Below the pieces are notes generated by a model, which ran no database searches, was not told the origin of the DNA, and saw nothing but the letters and a program-made list of their open reading frames with translations. From the NCBI RefSeq assembly GCF_012952295.1, contig NZ_JABBCH010000020.1, positions 1-60,727 on the forward strand: a stretch of DNA of 60,727 nt, read 5' to 3'. Position 1 is the first letter of the stretch. Each line of letters starts with the position of its first letter. The translations under genes and the position numbers were made by a program. Below, piece by piece: positions 9,346-25,590 of this stretch. This DNA is from Crystallibacter degradans. GTDB taxonomy: Bacteria > Actinomycetota > Actinomycetes > Actinomycetales > Micrococcaceae.

Positions 9346-11064
9346 ATGACGCAAACGATCGAGAGTCTGAGTACGAGGTCCCTAGAGACCGTGCGCATTC
9401 CCATGCGGGACGGCGTACACCTGTCTGCTGTTGTTTACCGCGCTTCCTCGGATCAGGGGCAACCAGTCCTTTTGGTCCGTACGCCTTACAACGAGCAGAT
9501 GTCTCGCTCCTTGCCTATTCTGCCGGCGCTTGAGGCAGGTTTCGCCGTCGTTGTTGAAAATTGCCGGGGCACCGGTTCCTCCGAGGGGGAACTACGGGCG
9601 TTTGAGAACGAAACCAACGACGGCCTCGATTCCATCGCCTGGCTGGTGGACCAGCGGTGGTCGTCGGGGCAGATCTGCATGTTCGGTGCCTCCTACCTCG
9701 GCATGTCGCAACTGGCAGTTAGCGGCCACCGTCCGGAGGGCCTCACCGCCATCGTTCCAATCGTTGCCACCAACAGCTACCGGGACGGTCTGGTCTACAA
9801 GCAGGGTGCGCTGCAGCTCGGACAGGGACTCGGCTGGCACACGTTGAAAACAGCGCAGACCTTAGGAGAACGTGCCGCACGGGGCGAAGATATCGCGGCA
9901 AAAATGGGTGCCTTCATTAGCATGACGCGCGACATGGAAGCCACTTATCGCACACTGCCTTTGACGGACTTAAACGCCATCACTGATGTCCTGCCCAGCT
10001 GGAAGGACTGGCTGCATAAGGAAACGGATGCCGATTACTGGAAGCAAATCGGCTACACCCAACATCGGGCCAGGACTGAAGTGCCGGCCCTGCACGTCGG
10101 CGGCTGGTTCGATCTGTTCCTCGGCGGAACACTCGACAATTACACGACGATCGCGCAGAAGGCGGAGTCCCCCGAAGCCCGTAGGAACCAGCATCTGATT
10201 GTTGGTCCCTGGACCCATACAGACCAGAGTGGTGCCGCGGGTGAACTGCATTTCGCGGCCGGCGCGGCCCAGGCCATCCGGCTTGAGGAACAGCAGCTGC
10301 GCTTCCTGCGCGAGAGCGTCGACGGCGATGCTACGTCTTTGCCTCCGGTCCAGATCTTCGTCATGGGGGCAAACCGGTGGCGTGCGGAGGAGGAATGGCC
10401 GTTGGCCCGAACGCAGTGGCAGAAGTGGTACCTACAGGCCGACGGCGGGCTGGGGCAAGAGCCGGGCGGAAAGAATGCCATCGTTGAATTTGTCCATGAT
10501 CCGCACAACCCGGTACCGACCGTAGGCGGCGGCACACTGATCAACGGCGGGCCTGATGGCGGTATGGAATATATGCCTGGCGCGCGCGATCAGAGAGTCT
10601 TGGATGGCCGTAGCGATATTGCAAGATTTACCAGCCATGTCCTTGCAGACGAGTTGGAAGTCACCGGTCCGTTAACCGTCACGCTGCACGCGTCGACATC
10701 AGCACACGATGCTGACTTCACCGCGAAGTTGGTGGATGTCTGGCCGGATGGCAGGGCCATGGGGGTGGCCGACGGCATCGTTCGGGCCCGTTATCGCAAC
10801 GGGATGGATGACGCCGTGATTGTCGAACCAGGGGAGGTTTACGAATACACGATTGATCTGGTTGCAACCAGTCAGGTCTTCAAGAAAGGCCATCGGATCC
10901 GCGTGGATATCGCGAGTTCCAATTTTCCATGCTACGACCGGAATTCCGGGATCAGGAAACCAGCCGGCGACGTCACCGAAGAAGACTTCGTCACGGCGGT
11001 ACAACAGATTTCCTGCACGGCAAGTCAGCCCAGCTACATCCAATTGCCTGTAATTCCTTCATAA
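9346..11064 (+). CDS. CocE/NonD-family serine hydrolase (X-Pro dipeptidyl-peptidase S15-like)
   Basis: 572 aa. The alpha/beta-hydrolase domain is followed by a C-terminal jelly-roll domain, as in cocaine esterase CocE. Nucleophile Ser116 sits in MFGASYLGMSQ (CocE uses the same GxSYxG at Ser117). The conserved N-terminal IPMRDGVHLSAVVYRAS and RTPYN are present, with a His in VGPWTH, and the C-terminal domain begins near FTSHVLADELEVTGPL. It hydrolyses an ester or amide in the cytosol; the substrate is unknown. I chose the ATG where family similarity begins; the ribosome site there is weak and upstream in-frame starts are no better. Twelve bases separate it from the ABC-transporter genes, so the hydrolase probably acts on the imported compound. 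Confidence 0.82.
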   Translation: MTQTIESLSTRSLETVRIPMRDGVHLSAVVYRASSDQGQPVLLVRTPYNEQMSRSLPILPALEAGFAVVVENCRGTGSSEGELRAFENETNDGLDSIAWLVDQRWSSGQICMFGASYLGMSQLAVSGHRPEGLTAIVPIVATNSYRDGLVYKQGALQLGQGLGWHTLKTAQTLGERAARGEDIAAKMGAFISMTRDMEATYRTLPLTDLNAITDVLPSWKDWLHKETDADYWKQIGYTQHRARTEVPALHVGGWFDLFLGGTLDNYTTIAQKAESPEARRNQHLIVGPWTHTDQSGAAGELHFAAGAAQAIRLEEQQLRFLRESVDGDATSLPPVQIFVMGANRWRAEEEWPLARTQWQKWYLQADGGLGQEPGGKNAIVEFVHDPHNPVPTVGGGTLINGGPDGGMEYMPGARDQRVLDGRSDIARFTSHVLADELEVTGPLTVTLHASTSAHDADFTAKLVDVWPDGRAMGVADGIVRARYRNGMDDAVIVEPGEVYEYTIDLVATSQVFKKGHRIRVDIASSNFPCYDRNSGIRKPAGDVTEEDFVTAVQQISCTASQPSYIQLPVIPS

Positions 11065-11076
11065 GGAGAACTATCT

Positions 11077-12381
11077 ATGCATGCTCGACGACGCGCACTT
11101 GCTCTTGCGGCTACAGCCGCACTTTTGATGACCGGTTGTGCCGGCACCGCTGTCTCTAACAGCGGCGGCAGCGCCGGTGCCGACGGAGGTGCCGGTCCCG
11201 AAGCCTTGGTCAGCGTTCCGGGTTTCGACGCGGAAACCAAGACCATTACAGTGGGGAATTTGGTGCCGACCTCCGGAGTATTCGCTCCGGCGGTTACCAA
11301 TGTCACCGGTCAGGAAGCGTGGTTCCATCGGGCAACGCAGCCCGGCGGCCCTTTGGAGGGCTTCACCGTGGAGGTGGAAAACTACGACACCGAATACAAC
11401 CCTTCGGTTGCCGTCCCGCTGTACAACTCGATGAAGAACGACGTACTGATGCTCACGAATGTGCTGGGCACCGCCATTGTCCAGGCGCTCCTCCCTCAGC
11501 TCGAGACCGATAACATGATGGCAATCCCCGCAGTTGCGGTTGAGGATTTGCTTCAGCACCCCAACATTGCCCCGTTCGGCCCGGTTTACGCGACCTACCA
11601 TTCGGCGGCGGTCCAGTACTTTGCTGACGAGCAGGGTCTGCAGGAGGCTACGTACTGCGCGCTGTTGCAGGATGACGACTTCGGAGACCAAGTGGAGCAC
11701 GGCTTTGACTACGCCGTTGAAGAGCTGGGCCTCAAGAAGGGTGTTGCCGTTCGGTTCCCGACGGCGCATCAGGACTTCACTCCGCAGATTTCCCGCCTGA
11801 AGAGTGCAGGCTGCGAAGTGGTTGATCTCGGCGGGGCCGGTGCCGTAATCCAAAACGCCGCTGTCCGCGCCGTGCAGCTGAACTTCGATGCAAAGTGGAT
11901 CGCGGGCAACACCGCCTACAACGAGAGCCTCGCCACCGGGCCCGCCGCTGACTACATCAAAGAGAACGTAAAGTTCTTCGTCACGGGCACCGAATGGGGC
12001 GATACATCGGTTGAAGGTCAGAAGATGTTGGAAGAGGATCTGGCCGAGATAGACCCGGACCATAAGCCGATGGCCAACAGCTATCAGACGGGTTACTTGA
12101 GCGGCATGGTGGCTACTGCAATTCTCGAACAGGCCATCGCCGACGGCGACCTGTCTCGCGAGCACCTGATGGAGGTTGCAAAAACCCTCGATACGGTCCC
12201 GGACTATGGAATGGGCGGCGGCGACTACACCTATGGAGGCGACCCCGCGAAGCGCAAGTCAGGTCACTTCATCTCCGTCTTCACAGTCAACGAGGACGCT
12301 GCCACAGGCCTAAAGCTGGAGGAATACAACTACGATTCGGCCGTTGCCAAGCAATTCAACGCTACCGAAGTCGGTAAGTAA
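11077..12381 (+). CDS. Branched-chain-amino-acid-type ABC transporter, substrate-binding lipoprotein
   Basis: 434 aa. Signal peptide with lipobox LMTGC (Cys21), Ser/Gly linker, then a type I periplasmic-binding fold (TITVGNLVPTSGVFAPAVTN; VEVENYDTEYNPSVAVPLYN; later ISVFTVN near the end). The family (LivJ/HAAT) captures amino acids, amides, urea or aromatic acids. AAGGAGAAC precedes the ATG. It is the second gene of a hydrolase-transporter operon that continues with two ATPases and two permeases, so the importer is complete. Its ligand is presumably the substrate, or a product, of the hydrolase. Confidence 0.87.
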   Translation: MHARRRALALAATAALLMTGCAGTAVSNSGGSAGADGGAGPEALVSVPGFDAETKTITVGNLVPTSGVFAPAVTNVTGQEAWFHRATQPGGPLEGFTVEVENYDTEYNPSVAVPLYNSMKNDVLMLTNVLGTAIVQALLPQLETDNMMAIPAVAVEDLLQHPNIAPFGPVYATYHSAAVQYFADEQGLQEATYCALLQDDDFGDQVEHGFDYAVEELGLKKGVAVRFPTAHQDFTPQISRLKSAGCEVVDLGGAGAVIQNAAVRAVQLNFDAKWIAGNTAYNESLATGPAADYIKENVKFFVTGTEWGDTSVEGQKMLEEDLAEIDPDHKPMANSYQTGYLSGMVATAILEQAIADGDLSREHLMEVAKTLDTVPDYGMGGGDYTYGGDPAKRKSGHFISVFTVNEDAATGLKLEEYNYDSAVAKQFNATEVGK

Positions 12382-12421
12382 AACCGCCGGACCCGGTACG
12401 GCTCTCACTAAAGGAGACATG

Positions 12422-13246
12422 ATGAACGCCCAGAGACGGCACATCAGACAGAGTCCAGATCGCTTAAGCGCTTCGAAGCTTTTGTCAGTTGAAAACTTAT
12501 CCGTGGCCTACAGCGGCGGTTCGATTTCGGCGCTCGAAGGCATCAACCTTGATGTGCATGAAGGCGAGATCGTGGCACTCCTGGGAGTGAACGGAGCAGG
12601 TAAGACGACCTTGCTTCGCGCCGTATCGGGTCTGTTAGGCCTGCACGGAGGCGCCGTACGAAGCGGGTCAATCAGCTATCAGAGGAAGAACCTGGGCGAT
12701 GAAAGCCCGTGGGGGAGGGTACGCAAAGGAATCTCCATTTCCCTGGAAGGACGGCGCGTCTTCACTGATTTGAGTGTCCAGGACAATCTCAAGGCGGGCG
12801 GATACACACAGTCGAAGTCAGCTGCTGCCAAGGCCTATCAGAACGTAGTCGAGCTGTTCCCGGTCTTGGCGCGGAAGCGGGATCTGGCGGCCGGGTTATT
12901 GTCCGGTGGAGAGCAGCAGATGCTCGCCGTCGGCCGCGCACTCATGCAGGGGCCGAAATTGTTGCTGCTGGACGAGCCGTCATTGGGTCTTGCCCCCTTG
13001 ATCGTCAATCAGATCAGGGACATCATTGTGGAAATCAACGGTCAGGGATGCAGCGTATTGCTGATTGAACAGAATGTGGGAACGGCTCTGTCCATTGCCG
13101 ATTACGCCTATGTGCTGGACAGCCGCAGGGTTGAGCACCATGGCACGGCACAGGAAATGCTTGCGGATGATACCTTGCGAGATCTATACCTCGGTATCGC
13201 TGCCCCGGCGGCAGGCCGGAAGCTGAACAAGGAAGCGGTGCGCTGA
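12422..13246 (+). CDS. ABC transporter ATP-binding protein, LivF type
   Basis: 274 aa ATPase energising the HAAT-type importer. Walker A GVNGAGKTT, signature LSGGEQQ, Walker B LLLLDEPS and a LivF-like ending (YVLDSRRVEHHGTAQEMLAD) are visible. The second of two tandem ATGs was chosen because AAGGAG lies 5 bases from it. The N-terminus has about 20 extra polar residues before LLSVENLSVAYS, unusual for LivF and possibly a late start. It overlaps the next gene by one base. LivF before LivG and ATPases before permeases is not the commonest order for this transporter class. Confidence 0.88.
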   Translation: MNAQRRHIRQSPDRLSASKLLSVENLSVAYSGGSISALEGINLDVHEGEIVALLGVNGAGKTTLLRAVSGLLGLHGGAVRSGSISYQRKNLGDESPWGRVRKGISISLEGRRVFTDLSVQDNLKAGGYTQSKSAAAKAYQNVVELFPVLARKRDLAAGLLSGGEQQMLAVGRALMQGPKLLLLDEPSLGLAPLIVNQIRDIIVEINGQGCSVLLIEQNVGTALSIADYAYVLDSRRVEHHGTAQEMLADDTLRDLYLGIAAPAAGRKLNKEAVR

Positions 13247-14049
13247 TGCTGAACGTTGAATCCCTCAGGCTGGAGTTCGGGGGCGTCGTTGCCCTGAAAG
13301 ACGTGGACTTTTCGGTCGAAATGGGCGAACTCTTCGCCATCCTTGGTCCCAACGGAGCTGGGAAGACCTCTCTGTTCAACTGCCTCAGCGGCCTAGTGAA
13401 GCCCAAAGGCAGCATCCAGGTCAATGGCAATGAAGTCATTGGAAAGAAACCGCACGAAATCGCGGATATGGGCATTGCGCGGACCTTTCAGAACCTTGGA
13501 TTGTTCGGCTCTATGACCGTTGCGGAAAACATCCTTGTCGGCAGCCACCTGCAGATCCAGGGCGGTGCGTTCACTGCCGCCATCCGTTGGCCCAGCGTGT
13601 TCCGCTCTGAGCGGCAGGCTCGCCGGAACGCGGATGAGTTGATGGAGTTGATGAACCTGCTGGAAGTCCGCGATTCCGTGGTGGACACGCTGCCGTACGG
13701 CATTCGCAAGCGGGTGGAAATCGCCAAAGCCGTCGCGTCCAAGCCTTCATTGCTTCTGCTGGATGAACCCGTGGCCGGTATGAACCATGAAGAGACCGAA
13801 ACTTTCGTTGAGTATGTGCTGGAACTGAAGAAACAGTTGGGATTGACGATCGTCCTGATCGAACATGATGTGGCGATGGTTATGCGGATCGCGGACCGGA
13901 TCCTTGCACTTGATTTCGGAGAAGTCATCGGATTGGGGACACCTGCCGAAATCCAACAAAACGAACGTGTCATTGCTGCCTATCTCGGCGCAACAGACGA
14001 ATCCGACGCGCAGACAGAGTTGCTCATGGAAGGGGCGATCAGTGAATAA
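13246..14049 (+). CDS. ABC transporter ATP-binding protein, LivG type
   Basis: 267 aa. Walker A GPNGAGKTS, Walker B LLLLDEPV and the LivG hallmark GIARTFQNLGLFGSMTVAEN are present, with NHEETE after Walker B and an H-loop in IEHDVAMVM. The signature region is degenerate (LPYGIRKRVEIAKA), which is tolerated in LivG proteins. The start overlaps the stop of the upstream ATPase gene, and the stop overlaps the GTG of the permease gene by eight bases, showing tight translational coupling. Confidence 0.88.
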   Translation: MLNVESLRLEFGGVVALKDVDFSVEMGELFAILGPNGAGKTSLFNCLSGLVKPKGSIQVNGNEVIGKKPHEIADMGIARTFQNLGLFGSMTVAENILVGSHLQIQGGAFTAAIRWPSVFRSERQARRNADELMELMNLLEVRDSVVDTLPYGIRKRVEIAKAVASKPSLLLLDEPVAGMNHEETETFVEYVLELKKQLGLTIVLIEHDVAMVMRIADRILALDFGEVIGLGTPAEIQQNERVIAAYLGATDESDAQTELLMEGAISE

Positions 14050-14947
14050 CTTCATCCAACTGACCGCGTCCGGCATCTCGCTAGGCATTCTCTACGCCCT
14101 GGTGGCCATCGGATTTGCAGTACTGCTGAAGGCAACCGGCCACTTCAATATGCTGCCGGGGGCGCTCGTTCTGCTCGGTGCCTACCTGACCTACCAGTTT
14201 CACGTCCTGTGGTCGCTGGGATTCATCCTTGCCGTGGCTCTGGCTGCGGTTGTCTGCACGGCGTTAGGCATATTGGGCGAGCGATATCTGTTTTCCAAGC
14301 TCAGCGGCAAGGGGCACAAGTCTATCGAGCACCTTTCCGTTCTGTTGGTCAGCCTGGGATTGATCTCGATCGCGCAAGCCGCCGTGGTCAGCATTTGGGG
14401 TCCGTTGAATTACCTGATCAATGATCCATGGGGCCTCGACGTTGTCCGGCTGGGCGGAGTGGCCATCGCTGTCCGCGATATTTGGGCCGTTGTCCTCAGC
14501 CTCGGCTTGCTTGGAATTTTTTACTACATCATCCAGCACACTAGGGTCGGCGTTGGTATGCGCGCCGCGGCCAACGATCCGGAGGCCGCGCGTGCCCAAG
14601 GCATCAATCCGCACGTTATTTCAGCTACAGCCTGGGCAATGTGCGGTGCGGCCTCGGTGCTGGCTGGCATGATGTTGGCTACCGAAATCGGCGGGGGACT
14701 TGTGCCGACGCTGGACCAAGTCGCTTTCACTGCCCTGCCGGCCCTGATCCTCGGCGGCCTCTCGTCACTTCCCGGCTGCATTTACGGTGGACTGGCCCTG
14801 GGCCTTGTGCAGACTTATGCCTCCGGTTATGTTCCCGAAAGCTTCGGCCAGGGCTTCGCATCGGCCTTGCCCTGGGTTGTGCTCATCCTGCTGCTCGTGG
14901 TCAAGCCCAGCGGATTCGCCAAAACACTTGAAACAAGGAGGGCGTGA
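14042..14947 (+). CDS. ABC transporter permease, LivH type
   Basis: 301 aa membrane protein with about eight hydrophobic segments. It opens with FIQLTASGISLGILYALVAI GFAVLLKATG, typical of LivH, and contains RAAANDPEAARAQGINPHVI, the loop that contacts the ATPase. The GTG start lies inside the end of the LivG-type gene; this start gives the standard LivH N-terminus (MNNFIQL). It forms the channel with the LivM-type protein. Confidence 0.87.
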   Translation: MNNFIQLTASGISLGILYALVAIGFAVLLKATGHFNMLPGALVLLGAYLTYQFHVLWSLGFILAVALAAVVCTALGILGERYLFSKLSGKGHKSIEHLSVLLVSLGLISIAQAAVVSIWGPLNYLINDPWGLDVVRLGGVAIAVRDIWAVVLSLGLLGIFYYIIQHTRVGVGMRAAANDPEAARAQGINPHVISATAWAMCGAASVLAGMMLATEIGGGLVPTLDQVAFTALPALILGGLSSLPGCIYGGLALGLVQTYASGYVPESFGQGFASALPWVVLILLLVVKPSGFAKTLETRRA

Positions 14948-14952
14948 GCGCC

Positions 14953-16116
14953 ATGGCCATTACAGAAACGGTTAAGCCGGTCAGGACAGCCCATGTCCAA
15001 CGGGAAAGAAGTCGGACGAAGGACGAATCGCAGCTCTGTGTCTCCAAGGGGCAGCGAATCGGGCTGGCCGTCGGTTTCCTGTTGATCTTTGCGGTGCCGC
15101 TTAGCGTCGGAAACCCCTTCCTGATTTCCCTTGGCGTGACCATCGGAATCTATGCAATTGCTGCCATCGGGCTCAACGTGCTCTCCGGCTATGCCGGGCA
15201 AATTTCGCTGGCGCAGAGTGTTTTTGTGGGCGTCGGAGCGTTTGCTGGCGTCGCGTTGGCTGGCCTGGCTGAACTGCCGCTGCTGGTCTGGCTTCCGGCC
15301 ACCTTTATCATCGGGGGCTTGGCCGCGGCCATCGTGGCGCCGCTGACGCTGAGGCTGAAAGGTGTGTTCCAGATTGTCTTGAGTCTCGGCTTGATTTTCG
15401 TCGGTACCTACATCTTCGTGAACTCGACGGTCTTTACTGGTGGCAACAGCGGTATATCTGCTTCTCCCGCGTTGTCCCTGGGCTTTATGGACTTTGGCAA
15501 TCTTGTCGTCGGCGGCATGGCCTACGGCTACCAACAGGGCCTGTTCATCCTGGTGTGGCTGTGCGTGGCGGCCAGTATGATCGCAGTAGTCAATATGCAC
15601 CGCACCAGATTCGGGCGGTCCATGATCGCCATTCGGGAGGCTGAGACGGCGGCGCAGATTGCCGGCATCAACACCAACGGCGTCAAAGTCAAAGCGTTCA
15701 TCATCGCCGGAGCATTCGGCGGCTTGGCCGGCGGGCTGTTGCTGGCGCAGCTTCGGTATGTGCAAACCCATCAGTTCGGTATCAACATGGGGCTGGAACT
15801 ATTGATCATCGCCGTCGTCGGCGGTTTGGGTACCACCTGGGGCCCGGTTATCGGTGCCGCGATTATCAGTGCCATTCCGGTCCTGGCCACCCAATACGCG
15901 GAGTACATCCCCTTCCTGCAGGAGGATTTCAGCCAATCCGGTGAAATCGGGATTCCAGTTGGCCAGGTTGGACTACTGATTTACGGTCTCGCCCTCGTGC
16001 TGGTCATGGTCTTCGAGCCTCGGGGTGTCTCGCACTGGTTCAAGATCGGCGGCGAGAAACTGCGCTCCCTCGGCTCAGGCAATAGGGCAGTAGTGGACGT
16101 CCGCAAGCCTTCATAA
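14953..16116 (+). CDS. ABC transporter permease, LivM type
   Basis: 387 aa. After a polar N-terminal region of about 40 residues come the membrane segments with the LivM motif AIGLNVLSGYAGQISLAQSV FVGVGAF, then AIREAETAAQIAGINTNGVK (ATPase-contact loop) and GGLGTTWGPVIGA. The ATG was chosen because AAGGAGG sits 10 bases upstream; the in-frame GTG at 14944 is only one base from it. It is the last gene of the hydrolase-importer operon; a strong terminator follows. Confidence 0.87.
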   Translation: MAITETVKPVRTAHVQRERSRTKDESQLCVSKGQRIGLAVGFLLIFAVPLSVGNPFLISLGVTIGIYAIAAIGLNVLSGYAGQISLAQSVFVGVGAFAGVALAGLAELPLLVWLPATFIIGGLAAAIVAPLTLRLKGVFQIVLSLGLIFVGTYIFVNSTVFTGGNSGISASPALSLGFMDFGNLVVGGMAYGYQQGLFILVWLCVAASMIAVVNMHRTRFGRSMIAIREAETAAQIAGINTNGVKVKAFIIAGAFGGLAGGLLLAQLRYVQTHQFGINMGLELLIIAVVGGLGTTWGPVIGAAIISAIPVLATQYAEYIPFLQEDFSQSGEIGIPVGQVGLLIYGLALVLVMVFEPRGVSHWFKIGGEKLRSLGSGNRAVVDVRKPS

Positions 16117-16139
16117 AACCCCTCTGCTTCGGCCCGTAT

Positions 16140-16198
16140 GTGAGCTCGAATCGACCGTAAATTCCCTGCGGTCGGATCGGGCTCACCTGCGGTTTTTT
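16140..16198 (+). terminator. Terminator of the importer operon
   Basis: An 18-bp imperfect stem (GTGAGCTCGAATCGACCG with CGGTCGGATCGGGCTCAC) and a loop of about 11 bases, followed by CTGCGGTTTTTTCC. Clear intrinsic terminator. Confidence 0.8.
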
Positions 16199-16228
16199 CC
16201 ACTTTCTGAAGGGTTGAGAGACCGGATC

Positions 16229-16276
16229 GTTGACAGTCTCAAAGTGAGACGCAACGTCGGGACTGGCCCCGATACT
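16229..16276 (+). promoter_or_regulatory. Promoter region with GTCTCAA-A-GTGAGAC operator before the monooxygenase gene
   Basis: GACAGTCTCAAAGTGAGAC (16232-16250) matches the site at 9226-9244 in 18 of 19 bases. A -10-like GATACT or TACTGT follows about 22 bases downstream. No matching -35 is properly spaced, as expected for an activator-dependent promoter. The start codon is about 70 bases further on. Confidence 0.55.
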
Positions 16277-16345: not shown

Positions 16346-17437
16346 ATGCTGAACATCGGAATCAATCTGGGCTTCGGGAAGCTTGATGAGAACCTGACCG
16401 ACGAAGAGATGTACCACGGCGAGATCGATCTTGCCGTCCGCAGCGAGGTGCTGGGATATGACAGTGTCTGGGCTGTAGAGCATCACTTCAGCGATTACTC
16501 GATGTGCCCGGACAACCTGCTGATGATGGCGAATATCGCAGGGCAAACGAAGGAAATTAAGCTCGGCACCGGTGCCGTGATTGTTCCCTGGAATGATCCG
16601 CTGCGTGTCGCAGAGAAAGCCCTGATGGTGGACGCCATTTCCAAGGGCCGTCTGCTGCTAGGTGTCGGCCGAGGCCTGTCCCGCAAAGAATATGTGCCGT
16701 TCCGTATTCCGCTGGAGGAAACGCGGGATCGCTTCGACGAGGCGTCTGCCATGATTTTCGAAGCTGTTGAATCAGGCACTATCGAGGGTGAGGGGCCGTA
16801 CTACCCGCAGCCGCGCACCGAGCTCCGTCCGGGACCTAGAGGGTCATTCGTGGACCGCCGCTACTGCGTCGCCGGATCGCCGGATTCCATCACCTCGGCA
16901 GTAAACCTGCGTGCACGTCTCATGTCATTTATTGTTCGACCGGTTCCGGACCTAATGGGCAATTTCAACACCTATCGCGAGAAGTACGAGGAACAGCATG
17001 GTGAGGTTGCTCCTCCTATCTGCCTTAACGTCAACATGTACTGCCATGAAGACGATGGACTGGCCCAGGAACGTCATTTCGAATACATCTCCCGGTTCTT
17101 CCACTCGAATGTGGATCACTACGAAATGGCCGGCGACCACTTCGCCACCACCAAGGGATACGAACGCTATGCCGATGGCGCGAAGCGGATCAGGGAAGCC
17201 GGGCTCCAGGGCGCTGCCGACAAATACGCCGAGACGGCCCTCTGGGGCAACCCCGAGCGCATCCTTGGTCAGATCGAAGAGATTCGCGACGTTCTCGGAG
17301 ACTTTGAAATCATTGTTGCCCCGTGCTTCGGGGGCATGCCATACGACCAGGCCCGCGACAGTCTTGAGCTGTTCGCACGTGAAGTCATGCCAAAGGCGCG
17401 CAGCCTGAACGGGAAGAGGGCCAGCGTCGCGGCGTAG
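16346..17437 (+). CDS. LLM-class flavin-dependent monooxygenase (bacterial luciferase-like)
   Basis: 363 aa. TIM-barrel luciferase-like monooxygenase using reduced FMN and O2. Visible family features are GYDSVWAVEHHFSDYSMCPD, KLGTGAVIVPWNDPLRVAEK, GRLLLGVGRGLSRKEYVPF and RRYCVAGSPDSI. The closest-looking relatives are alkanal or ketone monooxygenases of two-component systems. AAAGGA lies about 9 bases before the ATG. It has its own promoter and operator and a hairpin after it. The likely FMNH2 supplier is the flavin reductase encoded at 20254-20796. A frameshifted copy of the C-terminus lies at 8773-9009. Confidence 0.83.
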   Translation: MLNIGINLGFGKLDENLTDEEMYHGEIDLAVRSEVLGYDSVWAVEHHFSDYSMCPDNLLMMANIAGQTKEIKLGTGAVIVPWNDPLRVAEKALMVDAISKGRLLLGVGRGLSRKEYVPFRIPLEETRDRFDEASAMIFEAVESGTIEGEGPYYPQPRTELRPGPRGSFVDRRYCVAGSPDSITSAVNLRARLMSFIVRPVPDLMGNFNTYREKYEEQHGEVAPPICLNVNMYCHEDDGLAQERHFEYISRFFHSNVDHYEMAGDHFATTKGYERYADGAKRIREAGLQGAADKYAETALWGNPERILGQIEEIRDVLGDFEIIVAPCFGGMPYDQARDSLELFAREVMPKARSLNGKRASVAA

Positions 17438-19330: not shown

Positions 19331-19414
19331 TCCCGCAACACCAGCAGGCAAACGGGAACAACAACAGCACAACAGCCGTACTGCGCATGCAGTCAGCAAA
19401 GAAATGGGACAGAG

Positions 19415-20257
19415 ATGAACAGGACTGTGGATTTCGCCGGAACGACGGCGGTGATTACCGGGGGTGCCTCGGGCATCGGGAAAGGAATTGCCAAAAGCTT
19501 CTTGGCCCGCGGCTCCAACGTCGTCATCGCCGACATCGATGAAGCATCCCTTGCGAGGACAGCCAAGGAATTGGGTGTGCTGGGCCTACGGACAGACGTC
19601 ACGGATCCCGAAAGCGTCCAATCGCTCGCCGACAGGGCGGTCGGGGAATACGGCGAAGTGCACGTGATCTGCAACAACGCCGGTGTAGGTCCGATGTCTG
19701 CGATGTCCAGCCTTACCCTGGAGGACTGGAAATGGATGATCGACGTCAATCTATATGGCGTCATCTACGGCGTGCACGCCTTCCTGCCGGTACTTGAAAA
19801 GAACACGGACTGGGGACACATCGTCAACACCTCCTCGATGTCGGTAGTTGCGCCGCCGCCGAACCTAGGCGCCTACGTGGCGGCCAAGGCCGGCGTGCTG
19901 GGCCTTACCGAAGTGCTCGACAAAGAGTTGGAACAGAGGAATTCCGTCGTACGTGCAACCGCACTTATTCCGGGTCCGGTGCGGACCAACATCATGAATA
20001 GCCTGCGGACCAGGCCGGCGGCCGGGAACAGCTCGCTCTACGACGTCGACATAGCAGACAACGGCAAAAACTTCCGGTTTCTGGAACCAGAGGCTGTTGG
20101 TCAGATCGTCCTCGACGCCATTCGAAGCAACGCAACCTTCACTGCAACGCACGCCGAGTGGCTGCCCCAGGTAGCTGACCGGCACACCCGCATCCAGCAG
20201 GGTTTCCCGCCCTGCAAAACGCCTGAACAGTTTTCCACGGAAGGAAACAAACCATGA
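19415..20257 (+). CDS. Short-chain dehydrogenase/reductase (SDR)
   Basis: 280 aa. Classical SDR with the cofactor motif GGASGIG near residue 16, an acidic residue after the second strand (VVIADIDEASL, suggesting NAD(H) preference), NNAGVG, the catalytic Ser in NTSSMSV and the YxxxK of AYVAAKAG. It oxidises a secondary alcohol or reduces a ketone. AUGA overlap with the flavin reductase gene (4 bases) shows a shared operon. The insertion after GPVRTNIM is longer than usual and may shape the substrate site. Confidence 0.84.
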   Translation: MNRTVDFAGTTAVITGGASGIGKGIAKSFLARGSNVVIADIDEASLARTAKELGVLGLRTDVTDPESVQSLADRAVGEYGEVHVICNNAGVGPMSAMSSLTLEDWKWMIDVNLYGVIYGVHAFLPVLEKNTDWGHIVNTSSMSVVAPPPNLGAYVAAKAGVLGLTEVLDKELEQRNSVVRATALIPGPVRTNIMNSLRTRPAAGNSSLYDVDIADNGKNFRFLEPEAVGQIVLDAIRSNATFTATHAEWLPQVADRHTRIQQGFPPCKTPEQFSTEGNKP

Positions 20258-20796
20258 CGAACGCGACCAGCGAACCGCAGACGCAAGCCCAGACCGCGAC
20301 TGATGCCGCCATGGAACTCAGCAACCGGGTCCGGGCAGTGCACCGCCAGTATCCCACCGGTGTCACGGTGGTGACCGCTGCCGTCGGGGGAAAACCGTAC
20401 GGTCTGGCCGTGAACGCCTTTTCCAGCATTTCGCTGGAGCCGCCTCTGGTTCTGGTCTGCGTCAACGAGTCATCTCGGTCCTATCCGGCGGTCTTCGAGA
20501 GCGAGTACATCGGCATCAATATCCTTGCGGCTGACCAGATGAATGTGGCTGCTACCTTCGCCAAATCCGGTGGTGACAAATTCGCTGAACTGGACTGGAC
20601 GCTGAGCGAGTTGGCTGTGCCTGTTCTCAACGGCGTGGCCGGGCATTTCGAACTTGAAGTCAAGTACAAGATTCCGGCCTACTCGCACACGATCTTTATC
20701 GGCCAGGTTGTAGAAGCTGCTTCAGCACAGAAGGCCCCGCTGGTCTATCAGGCAGGGAAGTTCTTTGACGGCGCCCTGCTGGAGCCAGTTCTCTAG
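20254..20796 (+). CDS. Flavin reductase of a two-component monooxygenase (HpaC-like)
   Basis: 180 aa. After a polar stretch of about 22 residues come the flavin reductase signatures RQYPTGVTVVTAAVGGKPYG, LAVNAFSSISLEPPLVLVCV and IGINILAADQ. The GD motif expected near the C-terminus reads KIPAYSHTIFIGQVVEAAS with a shifted histidine. It makes FMNH2 from NAD(P)H for a partner oxygenase; the luciferase-like protein at 16346 is the obvious candidate. It is translationally coupled to the SDR gene upstream. Confidence 0.85.
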   Translation: MTNATSEPQTQAQTATDAAMELSNRVRAVHRQYPTGVTVVTAAVGGKPYGLAVNAFSSISLEPPLVLVCVNESSRSYPAVFESEYIGINILAADQMNVAATFAKSGGDKFAELDWTLSELAVPVLNGVAGHFELEVKYKIPAYSHTIFIGQVVEAASAQKAPLVYQAGKFFDGALLEPVL

Positions 20797-20832
20797 CCTC
20801 TCATCGAAGCGGAATCAACGAGGAGTTTACCC

Positions 20833-21267
20833 ATGAGCATTACCCAGAACAGCATCGAAGACAGCAACCGGGAGCAGCTGCTGCTGGTTCTAGACCACAA
20901 CGGACCGGAGGGCGCGCTGGAGTCCCTGGATAAGTACTACACCTCAGACTTCGTGCGCCACGGTGACAAGGGCGACTACGACAAAGAGCGGTTGCGCGAA
21001 GGGCTACGCCGTTTGTACATCGGATTTCCTGATCTGAAACGCATGCAGTTCGACATCATCGCGCAAGGGGACAAAGTGGCTTACCGGTGGGAAGCCACCG
21101 GAACACATCTGGGTGAATACCTCGGCGTGCGCGCCACCAAGCGGCCGGTCATCGCCCGAGGCATGGTGATGTGCCGCTTTCAGGACGGCATGGTCGCCGA
21201 AGAGTGGGCATCGTGGAACAAGGCGAGCCTGCTGCACGACCTTGGCATCATTCCGTTGGACCGATAG
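20833..21267 (+). CDS. SnoaL-like / ester cyclase family protein
   Basis: 144 aa of the NTF2-like alpha+beta barrel class: LESLDKYYTSDFVRHGDKGD, GFPDLKRMQFDIIAQGDKVA YRWEATGTHLGEYLGV and AEEWASWNKASLLHDLGII. Members include polyketide cyclases, small hydrolases and isomerases that use the barrel pocket for acid-base chemistry. Here it lies between a flavin reductase and an SDR gene. I infer that it opens, hydrates or isomerises an oxygenated intermediate, but no catalytic residue can be fixed by eye. GAGGAG precedes the ATG. Confidence 0.75.
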   Translation: MSITQNSIEDSNREQLLLVLDHNGPEGALESLDKYYTSDFVRHGDKGDYDKERLREGLRRLYIGFPDLKRMQFDIIAQGDKVAYRWEATGTHLGEYLGVRATKRPVIARGMVMCRFQDGMVAEEWASWNKASLLHDLGIIPLDR

Positions 21268-21277
21268 GAGCATTCTG

Positions 21278-22219
21278 TTGAAAGAATTCAAGGGGAAAGT
21301 TGCGTTCATTACCGGCGGCGCTTCCGGCGCAGGCTTTGGCCAAGCGCAGGTCTTCGGACAAGCAGGGTGCCGAATCGCCATAGCGGATATAAGGCAGGAC
21401 GCACTCGACGACGCTGCAGTCAGGCTGCGCGAGGAAGGCATTGAAGCCCACACCATCCGGTTGGATATCTCGGACCGTGCAGCCTACGCGGAAGCGGCTG
21501 ACGAGGTGGACTCGGTTTTCGGCGGCCCGCCGCAACTGCTGTTCAACACCGCCGGAGTTAACAGCTTCGGTCCGTTGGAAAATGCCACTTACGAGGACTT
21601 CGACTGGATCTTCGGGGTTAACCTCAACGGAGTCATCAACGGCATCCAGACTTTCCTGCCACGGATGATCGCCAGCGGCCGGGACGGGCACATCGTAACA
21701 ACGTCCTCCATGGCCGGTTTCGAGGGAAGCCCGACGGCGGCAATATACGCAGCGACGAAGGCGGCGGTTTTCAACCTGATGGAAAGCTACGCCCTGGCGC
21801 TACCCAAATACGGCATAGGCGCGTCCGTCCTGTGTCCGGCGAGCATCCGCTCCAATATTGCCCATGCGCAGCAGACCCGCCCAGAGCATCTGGCCAAAAA
21901 CAGCGGATTCCGTTCAGACGAGGAATTCATTGAACTGCAGCATCAGCTGTACAGCGGCGGTATGGATCCCGTGGTGCTTGCCCAGCATGTCAAGCGTGCT
22001 ATCGAGAATGACGAGCTGTATGTCCTTCCCTATCCCGAGACGAAGGAGGGCATCCAGGCGCACTTCAACACGATCTTGGATGCCTTTGCTGATCTGGACA
22101 GTGACAGGGAAGGCGCCGACCAACGCGCCCGGGCCTTTGCGGAGTACCGGGCAAAGGCTGCCCGGAGCAAGGCAGCCCACGAAGCTGCCTCAACAGGGAG
22201 CGCGGCTCTAGCCAACTGA
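21278..22219 (+). CDS. Short-chain dehydrogenase/reductase (SDR), second of the operon
   Basis: 313 aa. TTG start with AGGAG 7 bases upstream, giving KEFKGKVAFITGGASGAGFG. The cofactor motif GGASGAG, an acidic VAIADIR-type strand end (CRIAIADIRQDA), FNTAGVN in place of NNAG, the Ser in TTSSMAGF and the YAATK catalytic pair are present. The C-terminal tail after residue 285 is rich in Ala, Arg and Lys. It is related to but distinct from the first SDR, so two successive alcohol/ketone steps are likely. It overlaps neither neighbour; 59 bases separate it from the aldolase gene. Confidence 0.83.
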   Translation: MKEFKGKVAFITGGASGAGFGQAQVFGQAGCRIAIADIRQDALDDAAVRLREEGIEAHTIRLDISDRAAYAEAADEVDSVFGGPPQLLFNTAGVNSFGPLENATYEDFDWIFGVNLNGVINGIQTFLPRMIASGRDGHIVTTSSMAGFEGSPTAAIYAATKAAVFNLMESYALALPKYGIGASVLCPASIRSNIAHAQQTRPEHLAKNSGFRSDEEFIELQHQLYSGGMDPVVLAQHVKRAIENDELYVLPYPETKEGIQAHFNTILDAFADLDSDREGADQRARAFAEYRAKAARSKAAHEAASTGSAALAN

Positions 22220-22278
22220 GGTGAAAGGGATGCAACTCGCCCCGCCGCTGTGCCATTTGACCAATCAAGGGAGTTTTC

Positions 22279-23139
22279 ATGGCTGTTGTGCCACTCAAAG
22301 AAATCGTGGCCGTAGCGTTCGAGGAACGCTACGGCGTCCCCGCGATCAACATTTTCAATGACCTCACGCTGGAAGCGGTGCTGGCCGGTGCGGTTGAGGC
22401 GAACTCGCCGGTGATCGTCCAGACCTCAGTGAAAACCGTCAAATCGATCGGTTCCGCGGTGCTGTTCAAGATGTGGGAAGCGATGACCGCCGGGATTGAG
22501 GTACCAGTGACGCTGCACCTGGACCATTGCCCGGACCGCGCGGTCATTACCGAGTGCCTGGAGCGGGGCTGGAATTCCGTGCTTTTTGATGCTTCCGAAC
22601 TGCCCGTGGAGGAGAATCTGCGGCAGACCATCGAAGTTGTCGCAGAGGCGCGAAAGTTCGGCGCCCATGTAGAGGGGGAGATCGAGTCCATCACTGGTGT
22701 TGAAGACGGCATCGGCTCCGATGATGAGGCGGCAAGGCAGCCGCTGGAGGTAGCGCTGGACTTCATCCGCCGGACTGGCGTGGATGTCTTCGCGCCAGCC
22801 ATCGGCAACGCTCATGGCAAGTACAAGCGGGAACCGGTGCTGGATTTCGAGCGGGTGAGTGACATCGTGCACGCGCAGCCGGTGCCGATCGCCCTGCATG
22901 GCGGCAGCGGCCTGTCCGATGAGCATTTCAACGACCTCATCTCCCGCGGCTGCGCAAAGGTCAACATCTCTACGGCCCTGAAGGTAGAGTACATGCGTTC
23001 GAACCTGGAGTTCCTCAAAGCTGCCGAACAAGCGGATAAGTGGGATCCTCCGTCGTTGTTCAAAAAGGTCAGTGGCGATGTCAGGGACATGACCATCGGA
23101 CTGGCCAAACAGTTCGGCAGCGCCGGAAAGGCGTGGTGA
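22279..23139 (+). CDS. Class II (Zn-dependent) ketose-bisphosphate aldolase family
   Basis: 286 aa, the size of GatY/KbaY/FbaA-type enzymes. Zinc ligands are visible: His83 (HLDHC), His179 (NAHGKYK) and His207 (LHGGSG); the catalytic Asp of the family is Asp82. These enzymes split ketose 1,6-bisphosphates to DHAP and an aldehyde. The context with dihydroxyacetone-kinase-type genes and a phosphatase implies a ketose phosphate other than the glycolytic one. GGGAG precedes the ATG. The start of the HAD gene overlaps its stop (GTGA). Confidence 0.86.
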   Translation: MAVVPLKEIVAVAFEERYGVPAINIFNDLTLEAVLAGAVEANSPVIVQTSVKTVKSIGSAVLFKMWEAMTAGIEVPVTLHLDHCPDRAVITECLERGWNSVLFDASELPVEENLRQTIEVVAEARKFGAHVEGEIESITGVEDGIGSDDEAARQPLEVALDFIRRTGVDVFAPAIGNAHGKYKREPVLDFERVSDIVHAQPVPIALHGGSGLSDEHFNDLISRGCAKVNISTALKVEYMRSNLEFLKAAEQADKWDPPSLFKKVSGDVRDMTIGLAKQFGSAGKAW

Positions 23140-23927
23140 CCGTGCCTGCTCTAATCTTCGACTGCGACGGTGTTCTAGCCGATACGGAACGCTTCGGCCA
23201 CCTGCCGGCGTTCAACCGGACGTTCGAGGAGTTCGAGCTGCCAGTCAGATGGAGCGAAGCGGACTATGCACTCAAGCTGCGCATTGGGGGCGGCAAGGAG
23301 CGAATGGCCAGCCTGCTCACCGAAGAGTTTGTCGCAGCCAACGGACTACCAGCGGACGACGCAGGGCAGAAGGAAGTGCTGGCTGCCTGGCACAAATCCA
23401 AAACGTCCCATTACACTCGTGCCGTTCAGGACGGACTGATGCCGGGGCGGCCGGGCGTTGTGCGGGTAATCGATGAAGCGCTCGCCGCGGGATGGCAGTT
23501 GGCTGTCGCTTCGACATCTGCAGAAGCGTCGGTCCGTGCCGTGCTGGCACATGTAGTTGGCACCGAGCGGGCAGCGAATTTCAAAGTCTACGCGGGGGAT
23601 ATTGTGCCGCGGAAGAAGCCTGCTCCGGACATCTACGAACACGCCCTTTCGGATCTGGATGTGGCCCCTGATGAGGTGATTGTGGTCGAAGACAGTGGAA
23701 ACGGTCTCCGCGCGGCACTGGCCGCCGGCCTGAAGACCGTGGTGACCGTCAGCAGCTACACGGCCGCTGAAAATTTCGACGGCGCAGCCCTGGTGGTCTC
23801 GTCCCTTGGCGACCGGGATGAACCTGCCGAAGCCCTGCATGACCCGCTTCGCCTTCAGCCACACGGCGAAGTAACCCTTGAAAACTTTAGGTCAATCCTG
23901 GCCGCCTCGGAGGTGAAAGCACCATGA
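23136..23927 (+). CDS. HAD-superfamily hydrolase (beta-phosphoglucomutase/phosphatase type)
   Basis: 263 aa. Motif I DCDGVLADTE (two catalytic aspartates), a helical cap from about residue 20 to 95, motif II Ser/Thr in VASTSAEASV, motif III Lys in PRKKPAPDIYEHAL and motif IV VVEDSGNG are all visible. The fold is that of CbbY-like sugar phosphatases and mutases. The GTG start overlaps the aldolase stop. A second GTG two codons later is possible. I infer a phosphatase that removes phosphate from a pathway sugar phosphate or proofreads by-products. The C-terminus overlaps dhaL by four bases. Confidence 0.84.
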   Translation: MTVPALIFDCDGVLADTERFGHLPAFNRTFEEFELPVRWSEADYALKLRIGGGKERMASLLTEEFVAANGLPADDAGQKEVLAAWHKSKTSHYTRAVQDGLMPGRPGVVRVIDEALAAGWQLAVASTSAEASVRAVLAHVVGTERAANFKVYAGDIVPRKKPAPDIYEHALSDLDVAPDEVIVVEDSGNGLRAALAAGLKTVVTVSSYTAAENFDGAALVVSSLGDRDEPAEALHDPLRLQPHGEVTLENFRSILAASEVKAP

Positions 23928-24562
23928 CAACCCAGAGTTTCATCGACACCGAATTCATCGTCAAAACCATTGCCCAGACCGCTGTCGACAGCGAACAGGA
24001 ATTCTGTGACCTTGACGCCGTTGTCGGGGATGGGGATTTCGGCTACTCACTGGCCCGCGGTTTCGAAATTGTGCTGCAGGACTGGGAGAGCTATGACCGC
24101 ACCGACATTGGAACATTCGTGCAGCGGGTCGCCATGGTGATTTCAGCACGTATCGGAGGTACCTCCGGTCCGATCTGGGGAACCGCGTTCCTGCGGGCAG
24201 CCTCCGTGGTCAAGGGTAAAGAAGCAGTCAACGGCGCTGATGCTGTTGCCATGCTCCGCGCCGCGGTGGAGGGAATTAAGGCACGGGGCGGTGCGGAGGT
24301 CGGGGAGAAAACGCTGCTGGACGCCCTGGTGCCCCTGGCCGACGCGCTGGAGCAGGCTAACGCAGAAGGTGCCGGAATAGCAGCAGCCATCGAAAAAGCA
24401 GCGAAGACGGCCCGCAGTGCCGCTGAAGCGACCAGCTCGATGGTGGCCAGGCGCGGACGGGCGAGCTACAGCGGAGAACGCAGCATCGGTTCCCCCGACG
24501 CCGGCGCCATGGCCGTGGCGATCATCCTCGAACGCATCAACGCCGAGTTGCCTGCACGTTAG
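23924..24562 (+). CDS. dhaL: Dihydroxyacetone kinase-type subunit DhaL (nucleotide-binding)
   Basis: 212 aa, the all-alpha ADP/ATP-binding domain. The Mg-nucleotide aspartates sit in DLDAVVGDGDFG (Asp31, Asp36, Asp38), and GTSGPIWG and SYSGERSIGSPDAGA match the family's phosphate loop and ending. Coupled by ATGA overlap to the HAD gene and followed by dhaK. There is no dhaM (PTS donor) gene, so the pair may be ATP-dependent, as for ketotetrose kinases of actinobacteria, rather than PEP-dependent. Order L before K is reversed from the common K-L order. Confidence 0.88.
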   Translation: MTTQSFIDTEFIVKTIAQTAVDSEQEFCDLDAVVGDGDFGYSLARGFEIVLQDWESYDRTDIGTFVQRVAMVISARIGGTSGPIWGTAFLRAASVVKGKEAVNGADAVAMLRAAVEGIKARGGAEVGEKTLLDALVPLADALEQANAEGAGIAAAIEKAAKTARSAAEATSSMVARRGRASYSGERSIGSPDAGAMAVAIILERINAELPAR

Positions 24563-24594
24563 GTAAGCAACCATCACAAGGAAGTGGAGCAAGC

Positions 24595-25590
24595 ATGAAA
24601 AGGTTTGTCAATGACCCCAAAGATTTCGTTCCTGAGATGCTCAAAGGCATCGCGCTAGCCAATCCCGAGACGCTCGCCTATATACCGGAGTACAACCTCA
24701 TCATGCGCAAGGATGCACCGCGGGAGGACAAGGTCACTATCATCCAGGGCTCCGGCTCCGGCCATGAGCCCGCCCACGTGATGACGGTGGGGAAGGGCAT
24801 GCTCGACGGCGCATGCCCGGGTGACGTCTTCGCGGCACCTCCCGCACACTATGTTTACGAAACGACCAAGACCCTGGCCTCATCGAAAGGTGTGCTGCTG
24901 CTGGTCAATAATTACACCGGCGACAAGATGGCATTCGAGATGGCGCAGGAAATGGCCGAAGCGGACGGCATCAAGGTGAAGACATTGTTCATCAACGACG
25001 ACGTCGCCGTTGAGGATTCGACGTTCACTGTAGGGCGCCGCGGTGTCGCCGGAAATTTCTTCGTCATGAAGGCTGTAGGTGCCGCTGCCGAGGCCGGTGC
25101 AGACTTGGACGAGCTGATCCGCATCGGCGAAAAGGTCAACGCACGCACCCGCACCATGGGCGCCGCACTCACCGCCTGCACGCCCCCGGCCAAGGGGACG
25201 CCGTTGTTCGAGCTCGGCGAATCGGAAATTGAGATGGGCGTCGGAATTCACGGTGAACCAGGCCGTCGGCGGGCGCCGCTCACGTCCGCCAACGAGATTG
25301 TGGACGAGCTGCTGGACAGCGTGGTCATGGACCTGCCTTTCTCCCGCGGAGACCGAGTGGCATTGATGATCAATGGCCTCGGAGGGACCCCGATCAGTGA
25401 ACTCTACGTCCTGTACGGCCGGGCCCATGAGCGGCTGGCTGCCCGGGGCATTACCGTTGCGCGCAGCTATGTGGGCGAGTACTGCACTTCCCTGGATATG
25501 GCCGGCGCATCTGTCACTCTGGTCCAGCTTGACGACGAGATCCAGGAATTGCTTGCGGCCCCGGCTGAGATCGCGGCGCGGATCTTGTAG
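24595..25590 (+). CDS. dhaK: Dihydroxyacetone kinase-type subunit DhaK (substrate-binding)
   Basis: 331 aa, full length. GSGSGHEPAHVMTVGKGMLD GACPGDVFAAP is the ketose-binding loop, and His219 in GVGIHGEPG corresponds to the histidine that binds dihydroxyacetone covalently as a hemiaminal (His218 in the E. coli protein). GAAGG-type ribosome site (AAGGAAG) upstream. It phosphorylates a short hydroxyketone, either dihydroxyacetone or a C4 ketose, together with DhaL. Last gene of the operon; paired hairpins follow. Confidence 0.88.
   Translation: MKRFVNDPKDFVPEMLKGIALANPETLAYIPEYNLIMRKDAPREDKVTIIQGSGSGHEPAHVMTVGKGMLDGACPGDVFAAPPAHYVYETTKTLASSKGVLLLVNNYTGDKMAFEMAQEMAEADGIKVKTLFINDDVAVEDSTFTVGRRGVAGNFFVMKAVGAAAEAGADLDELIRIGEKVNARTRTMGAALTACTPPAKGTPLFELGESEIEMGVGIHGEPGRRRAPLTSANEIVDELLDSVVMDLPFSRGDRVALMINGLGGTPISELYVLYGRAHERLAARGITVARSYVGEYCTSLDMAGASVTLVQLDDEIQELLAAPAEIAARIL

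Follow-up and report, generated by a model that had tools for sequence, protein, structure and literature searches.

The window analysed here, a stretch of 60,727 nucleotides (positions 1 to 60,727 of contig NZ_JABBCH010000020.1) from the 4.96 Mb genome of Crystallibacter degradans (assembly GCF_012952295.1), carries a long run of plus-strand genes that we describe as a catabolic gene cluster (Table 1). An original prediction, made from the sequence letters, had placed at 9346-25590 a CocE-type hydrolase, an importer, a luciferase-like monooxygenase (LLM), a regulator, two short-chain dehydrogenases/reductases (SDR1 and SDR2), a flavin reductase, a SnoaL-like protein, a class II aldolase, a HAD phosphatase and the dihydroxyacetone (DHA) kinase proteins DhaL and DhaK. 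Open reading frames and profile searches confirm that all of these genes are present, open and on the plus strand. The HAAT importer is complete, with its substrate-binding protein (SBP), two ATPases and two permeases encoded in a single gene run. Overlaps of a few bases join SDR1 to the flavin reductase gene (20254-20257), the aldolase gene to the HAD gene (23133-23139) and the HAD gene to dhaL (23924-23927), and the unit runs beyond 25590 to an acyl-CoA ligase gene, likewise conserved, which ends at 27380. The CocE reading frame opens at 9163 and the alignment with the homologue begins at residue 61. DhaK is the sole Dak1 match in the genome. For the regulator at 17537-19330, PF00158 (sigma54-activator domain) is not among the profile matches, and a Walker-A-like stretch is visible by eye. 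The GC content is 0.58-0.60 across 9-24 kb compared with mostly 0.62-0.67 in the rest of the window, which would fit a horizontal origin.

Table 1. Genes of the cluster and its surroundings in the window, with the matches behind each assignment.
Feature	Position	Strand	Basis and remarks
Catechol 1,2-dioxygenase	412..1386	+	TIGR02438 499 bits (cut-off 404.4)
CocE/NonD-family hydrolase	9346..11064	+	TIGR00976 401 bits (cut-off 66.3); cocaine esterase 4p08 336 bits; aryl-ester hydrolysis predicted
HAAT-type SBP	11077..12381	+	PF13458 128 bits
HAAT importer ATPase	12344..13246	+	PF00005 97 bits; true start probably downstream of 12344
HAAT importer ATPase (second)	13246..14049	+	PF00005, PF12399
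HAAT importer permease	14042..14947	+	PF02653; start from codon-score script
HAAT importer permease (second)	14944..16116	+	PF02653
LLM, luciferase-like (LuxA-type fold) flavin monooxygenase	16346..17437	+	PF00296 160 bits; AF2 pLDDT 89; Foldseek
AcoR/DhaR-like regulator	17537..19330	+	HTH_8 and AAA lid
SDR1	19415..20257	+	nearest PDB 5ig2 148 bits; 4yae (LigL) 145 bits
Flavin reductase	20254..20796	+	PF01613 131 bits; presumed LLM partner
SnoaL/NTF2-like protein	20833..21267	+	PF07366 79 bits
SDR2, LigD-like C-alpha dehydrogenase	21278..22219	+	4y98 (LigD) E 6.8e-107
Class II (ketose-bisphosphate type) aldolase	22279..23139	+	PF01116 266 bits; TIGR00167 222 bits (cut-off 215.6)
HAD phosphatase	23133..23927	+	PF00702/PF13419 (on longer reading frame); start from codon-score script
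DhaL	23924..24562	+	TIGR02365 177 bits (cut-off 138.3)
DhaK	24595..25590	+	TIGR02363 428 bits (cut-off 406.25)
Acyl-CoA ligase	25770..27380	+	PF00501 302 bits; conserved with cluster
PadR-type regulator	27429..28040	-	PF03551
VanA-type Rieske oxygenase	28238..29332	+	PF19112 VanA_C 173 bits; PF00355
VanB-like reductase	29366..30379	+	PF00111, PF00175, PF00970
AAHS-like (aromatic acid/H+ symport) transporter	30446..31792	+	TIGR00895 356 bits, below cut-off 418.55

In Arthrobacter hankyongi I2-34, which belongs to the same genus (contig NZ_JAKLTQ010000031.1), the genes for CocE, the HAAT importer, LLM, regulator, SDR1, flavin reductase, SnoaL-like protein, SDR2, aldolase, HAD phosphatase, DhaL, DhaK and acyl-CoA ligase follow each other in the same order, with protein identities of 68-91%, and this conservation places the gene string beyond chance. 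Two genes, coding for an alcohol dehydrogenase (named by its 64% similarity to that of Zafaria) and an aldehyde dehydrogenase, are inserted there between the importer and LLM. Within the genus, LLM is found in two of ten genomes, that of C. degradans included, and SDR2 in the same two. LLM relatives are rare more widely, with two in 198 genomes of the order (E≤1e-50) and five in 396 genomes of the phylum (E≤1e-60), again including the genome itself.

A clue to the substrate comes from SDR2, whose best solved relative is 4y98 (360 bits). This entry corresponds to LigD, and 4ya6 and 4yae to LigO and LigL, as read from the order of Table 1 and the residue numbering in the structural study (PMC4858972). 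SDR2 shares 57% identity with LigD over 290 amino acids, 46% with LigO and 43% with LigL; pairwise identities among the three Lig enzymes come to 40-42% in this comparison and to 37-40% in the study itself (PMC4858972). The tetrad Asn, Ser, Tyr, Lys of LigD is retained. A tree of 29 SDRs places ten SDR2 proteins together with LigD in one group (100/100), which is nested in a clade with LigO, 3ioy and LigL (100/99); the eight SDR1 proteins make up a separate group (88/87). By sequence, SDR2 is a close relative of the C-alpha dehydrogenases of the LigD/L/N/O type. The substrate-contact residues of LigL were considered as a guide to SDR2, but were of no use as they are specific to LigL and not to LigD. 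LigD is described as oxidising the alpha-R isomers of guaiacylglycerol-beta-guaiacyl ether (PMC4858972), and a beta-1 dimer is listed as a further substrate of LigD and LigL (PMC12997858). Dimers are therefore likely substrates of SDR2, as judged from its kinship.

The AlphaFold model of the LLM (pLDDT 89) is closest, by Foldseek, to bacterial luciferase (8cbb), followed by RslO1 (7bip), with the type II Baeyer-Villiger monooxygenase 4uwm at rank 25. RslO1 was dropped as a functional guide, as the relevant paper concerns RslO9. A luciferase-fold oxygenase (PF00296) with a separate flavin reductase (PF01613), a combination known from type II Baeyer-Villiger monooxygenases, is present. The best-known solved relative of CocE is cocaine esterase, which splits the benzoyl ester of cocaine, the type of bond predicted to be cleaved here. 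An evident signal peptide was not seen in CocE by eye. An SDR, a peroxyflavin enzyme with a carbonyl-attacking fold and a benzoyl-ester hydrolase would make up a natural alcohol-ketone-ester-acid series, which is classic for aryl ketones.

The first half of the cluster recurs in a small set of genomes. A scan of the named genomes with an alignment of the LLM confirmed 459 relatives, the best 80 of which were kept and gave 79 loci reaching 10 kb from the match or to the contig end, some of them extended. Neighbouring genes in these relatives were called by a codon-score script, which may have missed some, and gene names given below as assigned by eye were not profiled. CocE is encoded in seven of the 79 loci, all seven among the ten with an LLM identity of at least 55%, and in none of the other 69; in one more of the ten (L020), a CocE end lies at the contig edge. 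The seven loci belong to A. hankyongi, Zafaria cholistanensis, Microbacterium CH12i, Leucobacter massiliensis, Streptomyces fulvoviolaceus, an Actinomycetales metagenome-assembled genome (MAG) and Microbacterium 18062. All seven contain an SDR1-like SDR and, within the stretch read, six contain the HAAT importer, Streptomyces being the exception; an SBP is found in six of the 79 LLM loci. The flavin reductase is encoded in or near the cluster in all eight genomes with LLM and CocE, C. degradans included. In five of the relatives CocE directly adjoins LLM, and in the window, A. hankyongi and Zafaria it is the first of the importer genes and not directly beside LLM. Two neighbouring LLM genes, whose products are 52-60% identical to the LLM of the window, lie beside CocE in Leucobacter (L022, 10001-13346) and the MAG (L024, 2081-4383) and perhaps code for a two-subunit enzyme like bacterial luciferase.

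Several of the same genomes carry the second half. In CH12i, 18062 and the MAG, the genes for SDR2, aldolase, HAD, DhaL and DhaK adjoin each other in one run. This run shares one contig with the LLM-CocE cluster in CH12i (run at about 14.5-18.8 kb, LLM at about 34-35 kb) and one contig of 63,943 bases with the two LLM genes in the MAG (run at about 23.8-28.1 kb, LLM genes at 2-4 kb); in 18062, the halves lie on separate contigs. The original prediction had proposed a single system, and held that the halves (9.3-17.4 and 19.4-25.6 kb) would be separate systems if they never occurred together elsewhere and responded to different inducers. They co-occur in A. hankyongi, CH12i, the MAG and 18062, and the idea that the importer, the two-component LLM and flavin reductase, the SDRs and a linked DhaKL/aldolase module belong to a single catabolic system is supported. 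A second SDR2 relative is located next to the importer in the MAG and 18062, and the Leucobacter cluster has a flavin reductase and SDR2 just beyond it. In Zafaria, SDR2 is followed by a MarR gene on the opposite strand, a CYP199-like P450, an NMT1-type SBP and, 4.1 kb after SDR2, a 578-amino-acid DhaK-DhaL fusion, the halves of which are 42% and 38% identical to DhaK and DhaL of the window; this looks like an alternative route to the same function. Overall, SDR2 relatives (E≤1e-70) are present in six of the ten genomes with a close LLM, that is the ten loci of at least 55% identity, compared with one of 395 genomes of the phylum (Fisher p 2.5e-10, uncorrected for kinship; C. degradans left out of both groups). 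In a distant member of the phylum (G379; L118, 9374-12766), a solitary SDR2 relative (56-59%) is accompanied by an MFS transporter, and the 20 kb read contain neither LLM nor CocE.

The last four genes of this run also form an operon of their own. Of 396 genomes of the order, 20, C. degradans included, encode a close DhaK (E≤1e-120); 15 of the 19 other loci were fetched. All four genes for aldolase, HAD, DhaL and DhaK are present in 14 of the 15, without aromatic genes, and the encoded DhaK proteins of these stand-alone operons are 70-82% identical to that of the window. The other locus (L128) has DhaL and DhaK only, with neither aldolase nor HAD in the 2.9 kb before DhaL; the genome is 73% complete, and this is either a real exception or an assembly fault. 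SDR2, LLM and CocE were found in none of the 15 loci, and SDR2 heads the triose operon in five genomes (C. degradans, A. hankyongi, CH12i, 18062 and the MAG), all with LLM and CocE. In DhaK and aldolase trees the SDR2-linked operons fall into two groups, with a single origin in 1 and 2% of bootstrap trees. As the triose operon stands alone in other genomes and its SDR2-linked forms split into two groups, it looks recruited to the cluster. Similar to the stand-alone operons of Actinomycetales-type genomes, the Cryobacterium plasmid pA10BH1 has the same four genes in the same order, and like them differs from our cluster in having neither SDR2 nor LLM. On the plasmid (L016, 17632-26461), the module is accompanied by genes for a MIP channel, a heme-binding protein, triose-phosphate isomerase, RpiB and a two-part transketolase, adjoining a Tn3 transposase, and resembles a mobile cassette for the assimilation of triose or formaldehyde.

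The surroundings are of an aromatic and lignin type. The genome of C. degradans gives two VanA_C matches, one of them within the window, and five intradiol-dioxygenase matches (the weakest with 34 bits). Near the cluster of CH12i a vanillyl-alcohol oxidase (VAO)/eugenol-oxidase-like protein is encoded (8s7n 395 bits; eugenol oxidase 5fxd 363 bits), with homologues of 60% identity in the MAG and 71% in 18062. The CYP199-like P450 of Zafaria is another neighbour of this type, and the MAG contig has a gene run that by eye resembles a pca operon. The acyl-CoA ligase is conserved in A. hankyongi (80% identity), Zafaria (70%) and the MAG (59%), and in the latter two its neighbours are genes for an SDR, an acyl-CoA dehydrogenase and amidohydrolase-like and MaoC-like proteins, the last two named by eye after NCBIfam gave no match. 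A search of the whole genome with one glutathione S-transferase model (GST_N, PF02798), made for the etherases (LigE/F/P) and lyases (LigG/NaGSTNu) of the Lig pathway, gave no match, so that an etherase of the LigE/F type is unlikely by this sequence criterion. Actinobacteria generally lack glutathione.

From the gene content, the kinship with LigD, the conserved modules, the lignin-type neighbours and the lack of a PF02798 match, we infer the substrate, the order of steps, the Baeyer-Villiger chemistry and, above all, the role of DhaKL, aldolase and HAD. We consider it just about probable that the cluster serves lignin-derived arylpropanoids whose three-carbon side chain carries a C-alpha hydroxyl group; dimers of the beta-O-4 (arylglycerol-beta-aryl ether) type or related ones are the most likely candidates, and our confidence in this substrate class is moderate. 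The compound would be imported by the HAAT importer, and its C-alpha alcohol oxidised to an aryl ketone by SDR1 and the LigD-like SDR2, perhaps one for each stereoisomer. With reduced flavin from the flavin reductase, the LLM would oxygenate the ketone in Baeyer-Villiger fashion to give an aryl-carboxylate ester, which CocE would hydrolyse, releasing a vanillate-type acid and leaving a hydroxyalkyl remnant. In the case of a beta-aryl ether, this remnant would collapse to a phenol and glycolaldehyde, making a glutathione step unnecessary. The aromatic products might then be taken by the adjoining VanA/VanB-type and catechol-dioxygenase genes. Finally, a short hydroxycarbonyl remnant would enter triose and sugar phosphates through DhaKL, aldolase and HAD, either by condensation of glycolaldehyde with dihydroxyacetone phosphate and subsequent dephosphorylation or, if a hydroxymethyl ketone arises from another mode of cleavage, by its phosphorylation. 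This side-chain recovery is the weakest step, and we propose it with low confidence.

The proposal departs from the original prediction in two respects. There, CocE was thought to act first, on an imported ester or amide. As CocE adjoins LLM in five relatives, as SDR1-like SDRs occur in all seven CocE loci and as CocE has no evident signal peptide, the order alcohol-ketone-ester-acid fits better. Similarly, an arylpropanoid is a more probable substrate than a generic ester or amide, because of the LigD-like nature of SDR2 and the lignin-aromatic surroundings, both of which had been missed. The delivery of a C3 or C4 hydroxyketone to DHAP metabolism, also part of the original prediction, may still hold.

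Several observations weigh against our proposal. The remnant of a plain beta-O-4 dimer has two carbons and does not itself call for a DHA kinase. A LuxA-like fold is no proof of Baeyer-Villiger chemistry, since LLM enzymes catalyse many reactions, and both substrate and chemistry are predictions from sequence. The gene set is also not universal across LLM relatives. Over 21 kb, Geodermatophilus ruber (LLM of 77% identity) shows the LLM, regulator and SDR1 genes but lacks those for CocE, the importer and the flavin reductase, and the SDR2 relative of its genome reaches only 40%. The stretch read in Streptomyces holds LLM, CocE and SDR1 without the HAAT importer, and SDR2 is absent there at E≤1e-40. 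In Leucobacter, LLM, CocE, the HAAT importer, SDR1 and SDR2 are all encoded, but the genome gives no Dak1 match. Locus L025 (LLM 58%, on a 6 kb contig) has the LLM alone. Clusters on the Rhodococcus plasmids of GD02 and ZPP are similar in having an LLM of 40-42% identity, an SDR, an NTF2-like protein, a flavin reductase and a GAF-domain protein, but have no match to CocE, the importer, SDR2 or DhaKL in the 29 kb read. The LLM clusters on Rhodococcus and Pseudonocardia plasmids served as context only. R. rhodochrous GD02, the strain with the 42% LLM cluster, is reported not to grow on guaiacylglycerol-beta-guaiacyl ether (PMC9618137).

A further objection leads to an alternative that we regard as rather unlikely, namely that the same SDR-LLM-CocE triad acts on monoaromatic phenylpropanoids such as Hibbert-type ketones, arylglycerols or VAO-oxidised alkylphenols. 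The VAO/eugenol-oxidase-like genes beside three relatives (CH12i, MAG, 18062) would suit such compounds, as would the alcohol-ketone-ester-acid series that is classic for aryl ketones. LigD, LigL and LigN are described as reducing a monoaromatic diketone (PMC8612281), so that the substrate may be a monomer; the kcat of LigD, the enzyme that SDR2 resembles, is given there as ten times higher for the dimer than for the diketone (PMC8612281), and a three-carbon remnant would remain unexplained.

The same findings bear on another route with the same lignin-type substrate, which we think unlikely: the LLM would hydroxylate C-beta, adjacent to the C-alpha ketone, the hemiketal would lose the phenol to give a 1-aryl-3-hydroxypropane-1,2-dione, SDR2 would reduce the C-alpha ketone of this to yield an aryl-dihydroxyacetone and DhaKL would phosphorylate it, with aldolase or CocE acting downstream. 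This would account for the grouping of SDR2 with the aldolase and DhaKL genes (CH12i, 18062, MAG), although the MAG and 18062 carry a second SDR2 beside the importer. A hydroxymethyl ketone is shaped like a DhaK substrate, but there is no obvious retro-aldol reaction for the aldolase on the aryl-dihydroxyacetone product and the adjacency of CocE and LLM in five relatives is left unexplained. LigD does reduce the C-alpha ketone of an aryl 1,2-diketone in vitro, yet with the tenfold lower kcat mentioned above (PMC8612281).

Cleavage by CocE as the first step, as originally predicted, is improbable. If an ester or amide such as an aromatic acylglycerol were imported, its cleavage would yield an acid for the acyl-CoA ligase and glycerol-derived DHA for DhaKL, directly explaining the kinase and the ligase, and CocE does head the importer genes, apart from LLM, in the window, A. 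hankyongi and Zafaria. The ligase-side genes of Zafaria and the MAG resemble the Cou p-hydroxycinnamate pathway of Rhodococcus jostii RHA1, with its CoA ligase, beta-oxidation-like genes and amidohydrolase-like protein (CouO is described as an amidohydrolase; PMC4737184). The window itself, in contrast, holds the ligase only, and the likeness of the two relatives to the CouL/M/N/O set is one of gene content. LLM, flavin reductase and LigD-like SDR2 would be left without a job, CocE adjoins LLM in five relatives and Leucobacter has no DhaKL; we reject this order because the partner of CocE is LLM. Two separate systems side by side, an aromatic SDR-LLM-CocE system and a triose operon, are very improbable and are rejected: the four-gene operon without aromatic genes in 14 of the 15 fetched loci and its similar DhaK make a small, common triose the probable substrate of that operon, but gene order is kept in A. 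hankyongi, SDR2 heads the operon in five genomes, all with LLM and CocE, and in none of the 15 others, and Zafaria has a different DhaK-DhaL fusion after SDR2. Pathways for chloramphenicol- or ephedrine-type amino alcohols, riboflavin lyase and Dak-kinase pathways for apiose or erythritol were also considered and set aside.

Arylpropanoid catabolism as proposed here resembles the beta-aryl-ether pathway of Sphingobium SYK-6 (LigDLNO, LigEFP, LigG) in its first step, through the LigD relative SDR2, and in its lignin-type surroundings with a VanA-type demethylase and a ring-cleavage dioxygenase. Unlike in SYK-6, there is no PF02798 match, the linked genes are those for LLM, flavin reductase and CocE, a DhaKL module is present and the host is an actinobacterium. 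Type II Baeyer-Villiger systems such as 3,6-diketocamphane monooxygenase are similar in combining a two-component LLM and flavin reductase with a linked dehydrogenase and hydrolase, but the LLM of the window is nearer to the luciferase alpha subunit and RslO1 than to 4uwm, and an acyclic aryl ketone is predicted. Beta-aryl ethers are stated to make up 50-70% of lignin linkages, the defined bacterial pathway being the glutathione-dependent one of Sphingobium (PMC4858972). In the main text of a 2026 review of dimer pathways, the terms 'actino', 'flavin' and 'Baeyer' do not occur, and Rhodococcus and Amycolatopsis are mentioned only in connection with monomers (PMC12997858). Lignin attack by actinobacteria is otherwise ascribed to peroxidases such as DyP, for example in Arthrobacter C2 (PMC10765951). 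A Pseudomonas with a flavin reductase and an LLM 28% identical to the Streptomyces bottropensis LLM is reported to have hardly changed a model dimer, and CocE and dihydroxyacetone do not occur in that paper (PMC11485676). The gene combination was also absent from the titles and abstract openings found in our literature searches.

Elsewhere in the window, a second luciferase-like monooxygenase (57696-58685) is followed by an aldehyde-dehydrogenase-like gene (58939-60459, 34% to that of Zafaria), apart from the cluster. A thiamine-diphosphate enzyme flanked by two NMT1/THI5-type binding proteins is encoded at 4682-8530, with like proteins near the cluster in Zafaria and Leucobacter; its nearest NCBIfam models are sulfoacetaldehyde acetyltransferase and acetolactate synthase, those listed all being under their cut-offs. 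Genes of a Wadjet-type anti-plasmid defence system (JetD_C, DUF3322, DUF4194/MksE) lie on the minus strand at 35023-40230, perhaps to 41729, with profiles run on the two proteins at 35023-36090 and 39610-40230.

Taken together, we describe a coherent, rare pathway cluster, which has perhaps spread horizontally. Its gene families are known, and their combination would represent a variant of lignin-fragment catabolism. More tentatively, and with considerable doubt, we suggest an actinobacterial, glutathione-independent and O2-dependent pathway for beta-aryl-ether and related dimers, consisting of LigD-type oxidation, a Baeyer-Villiger step by the LLM, cleavage by CocE and a dedicated DHA-kinase/aldolase side-chain recovery. 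With this cluster, intracellular dimer cleavage by actinobacteria could be tested directly using about six genes, and enzymes that release vanillate-type acids from dimers independently of glutathione would be of use in lignin conversion. If the proposal is true, certain soil actinobacteria would take up and break lignin fragments by an O2-using route unlike the glutathione route, which would be of relevance for carbon cycling and lignin recycling.

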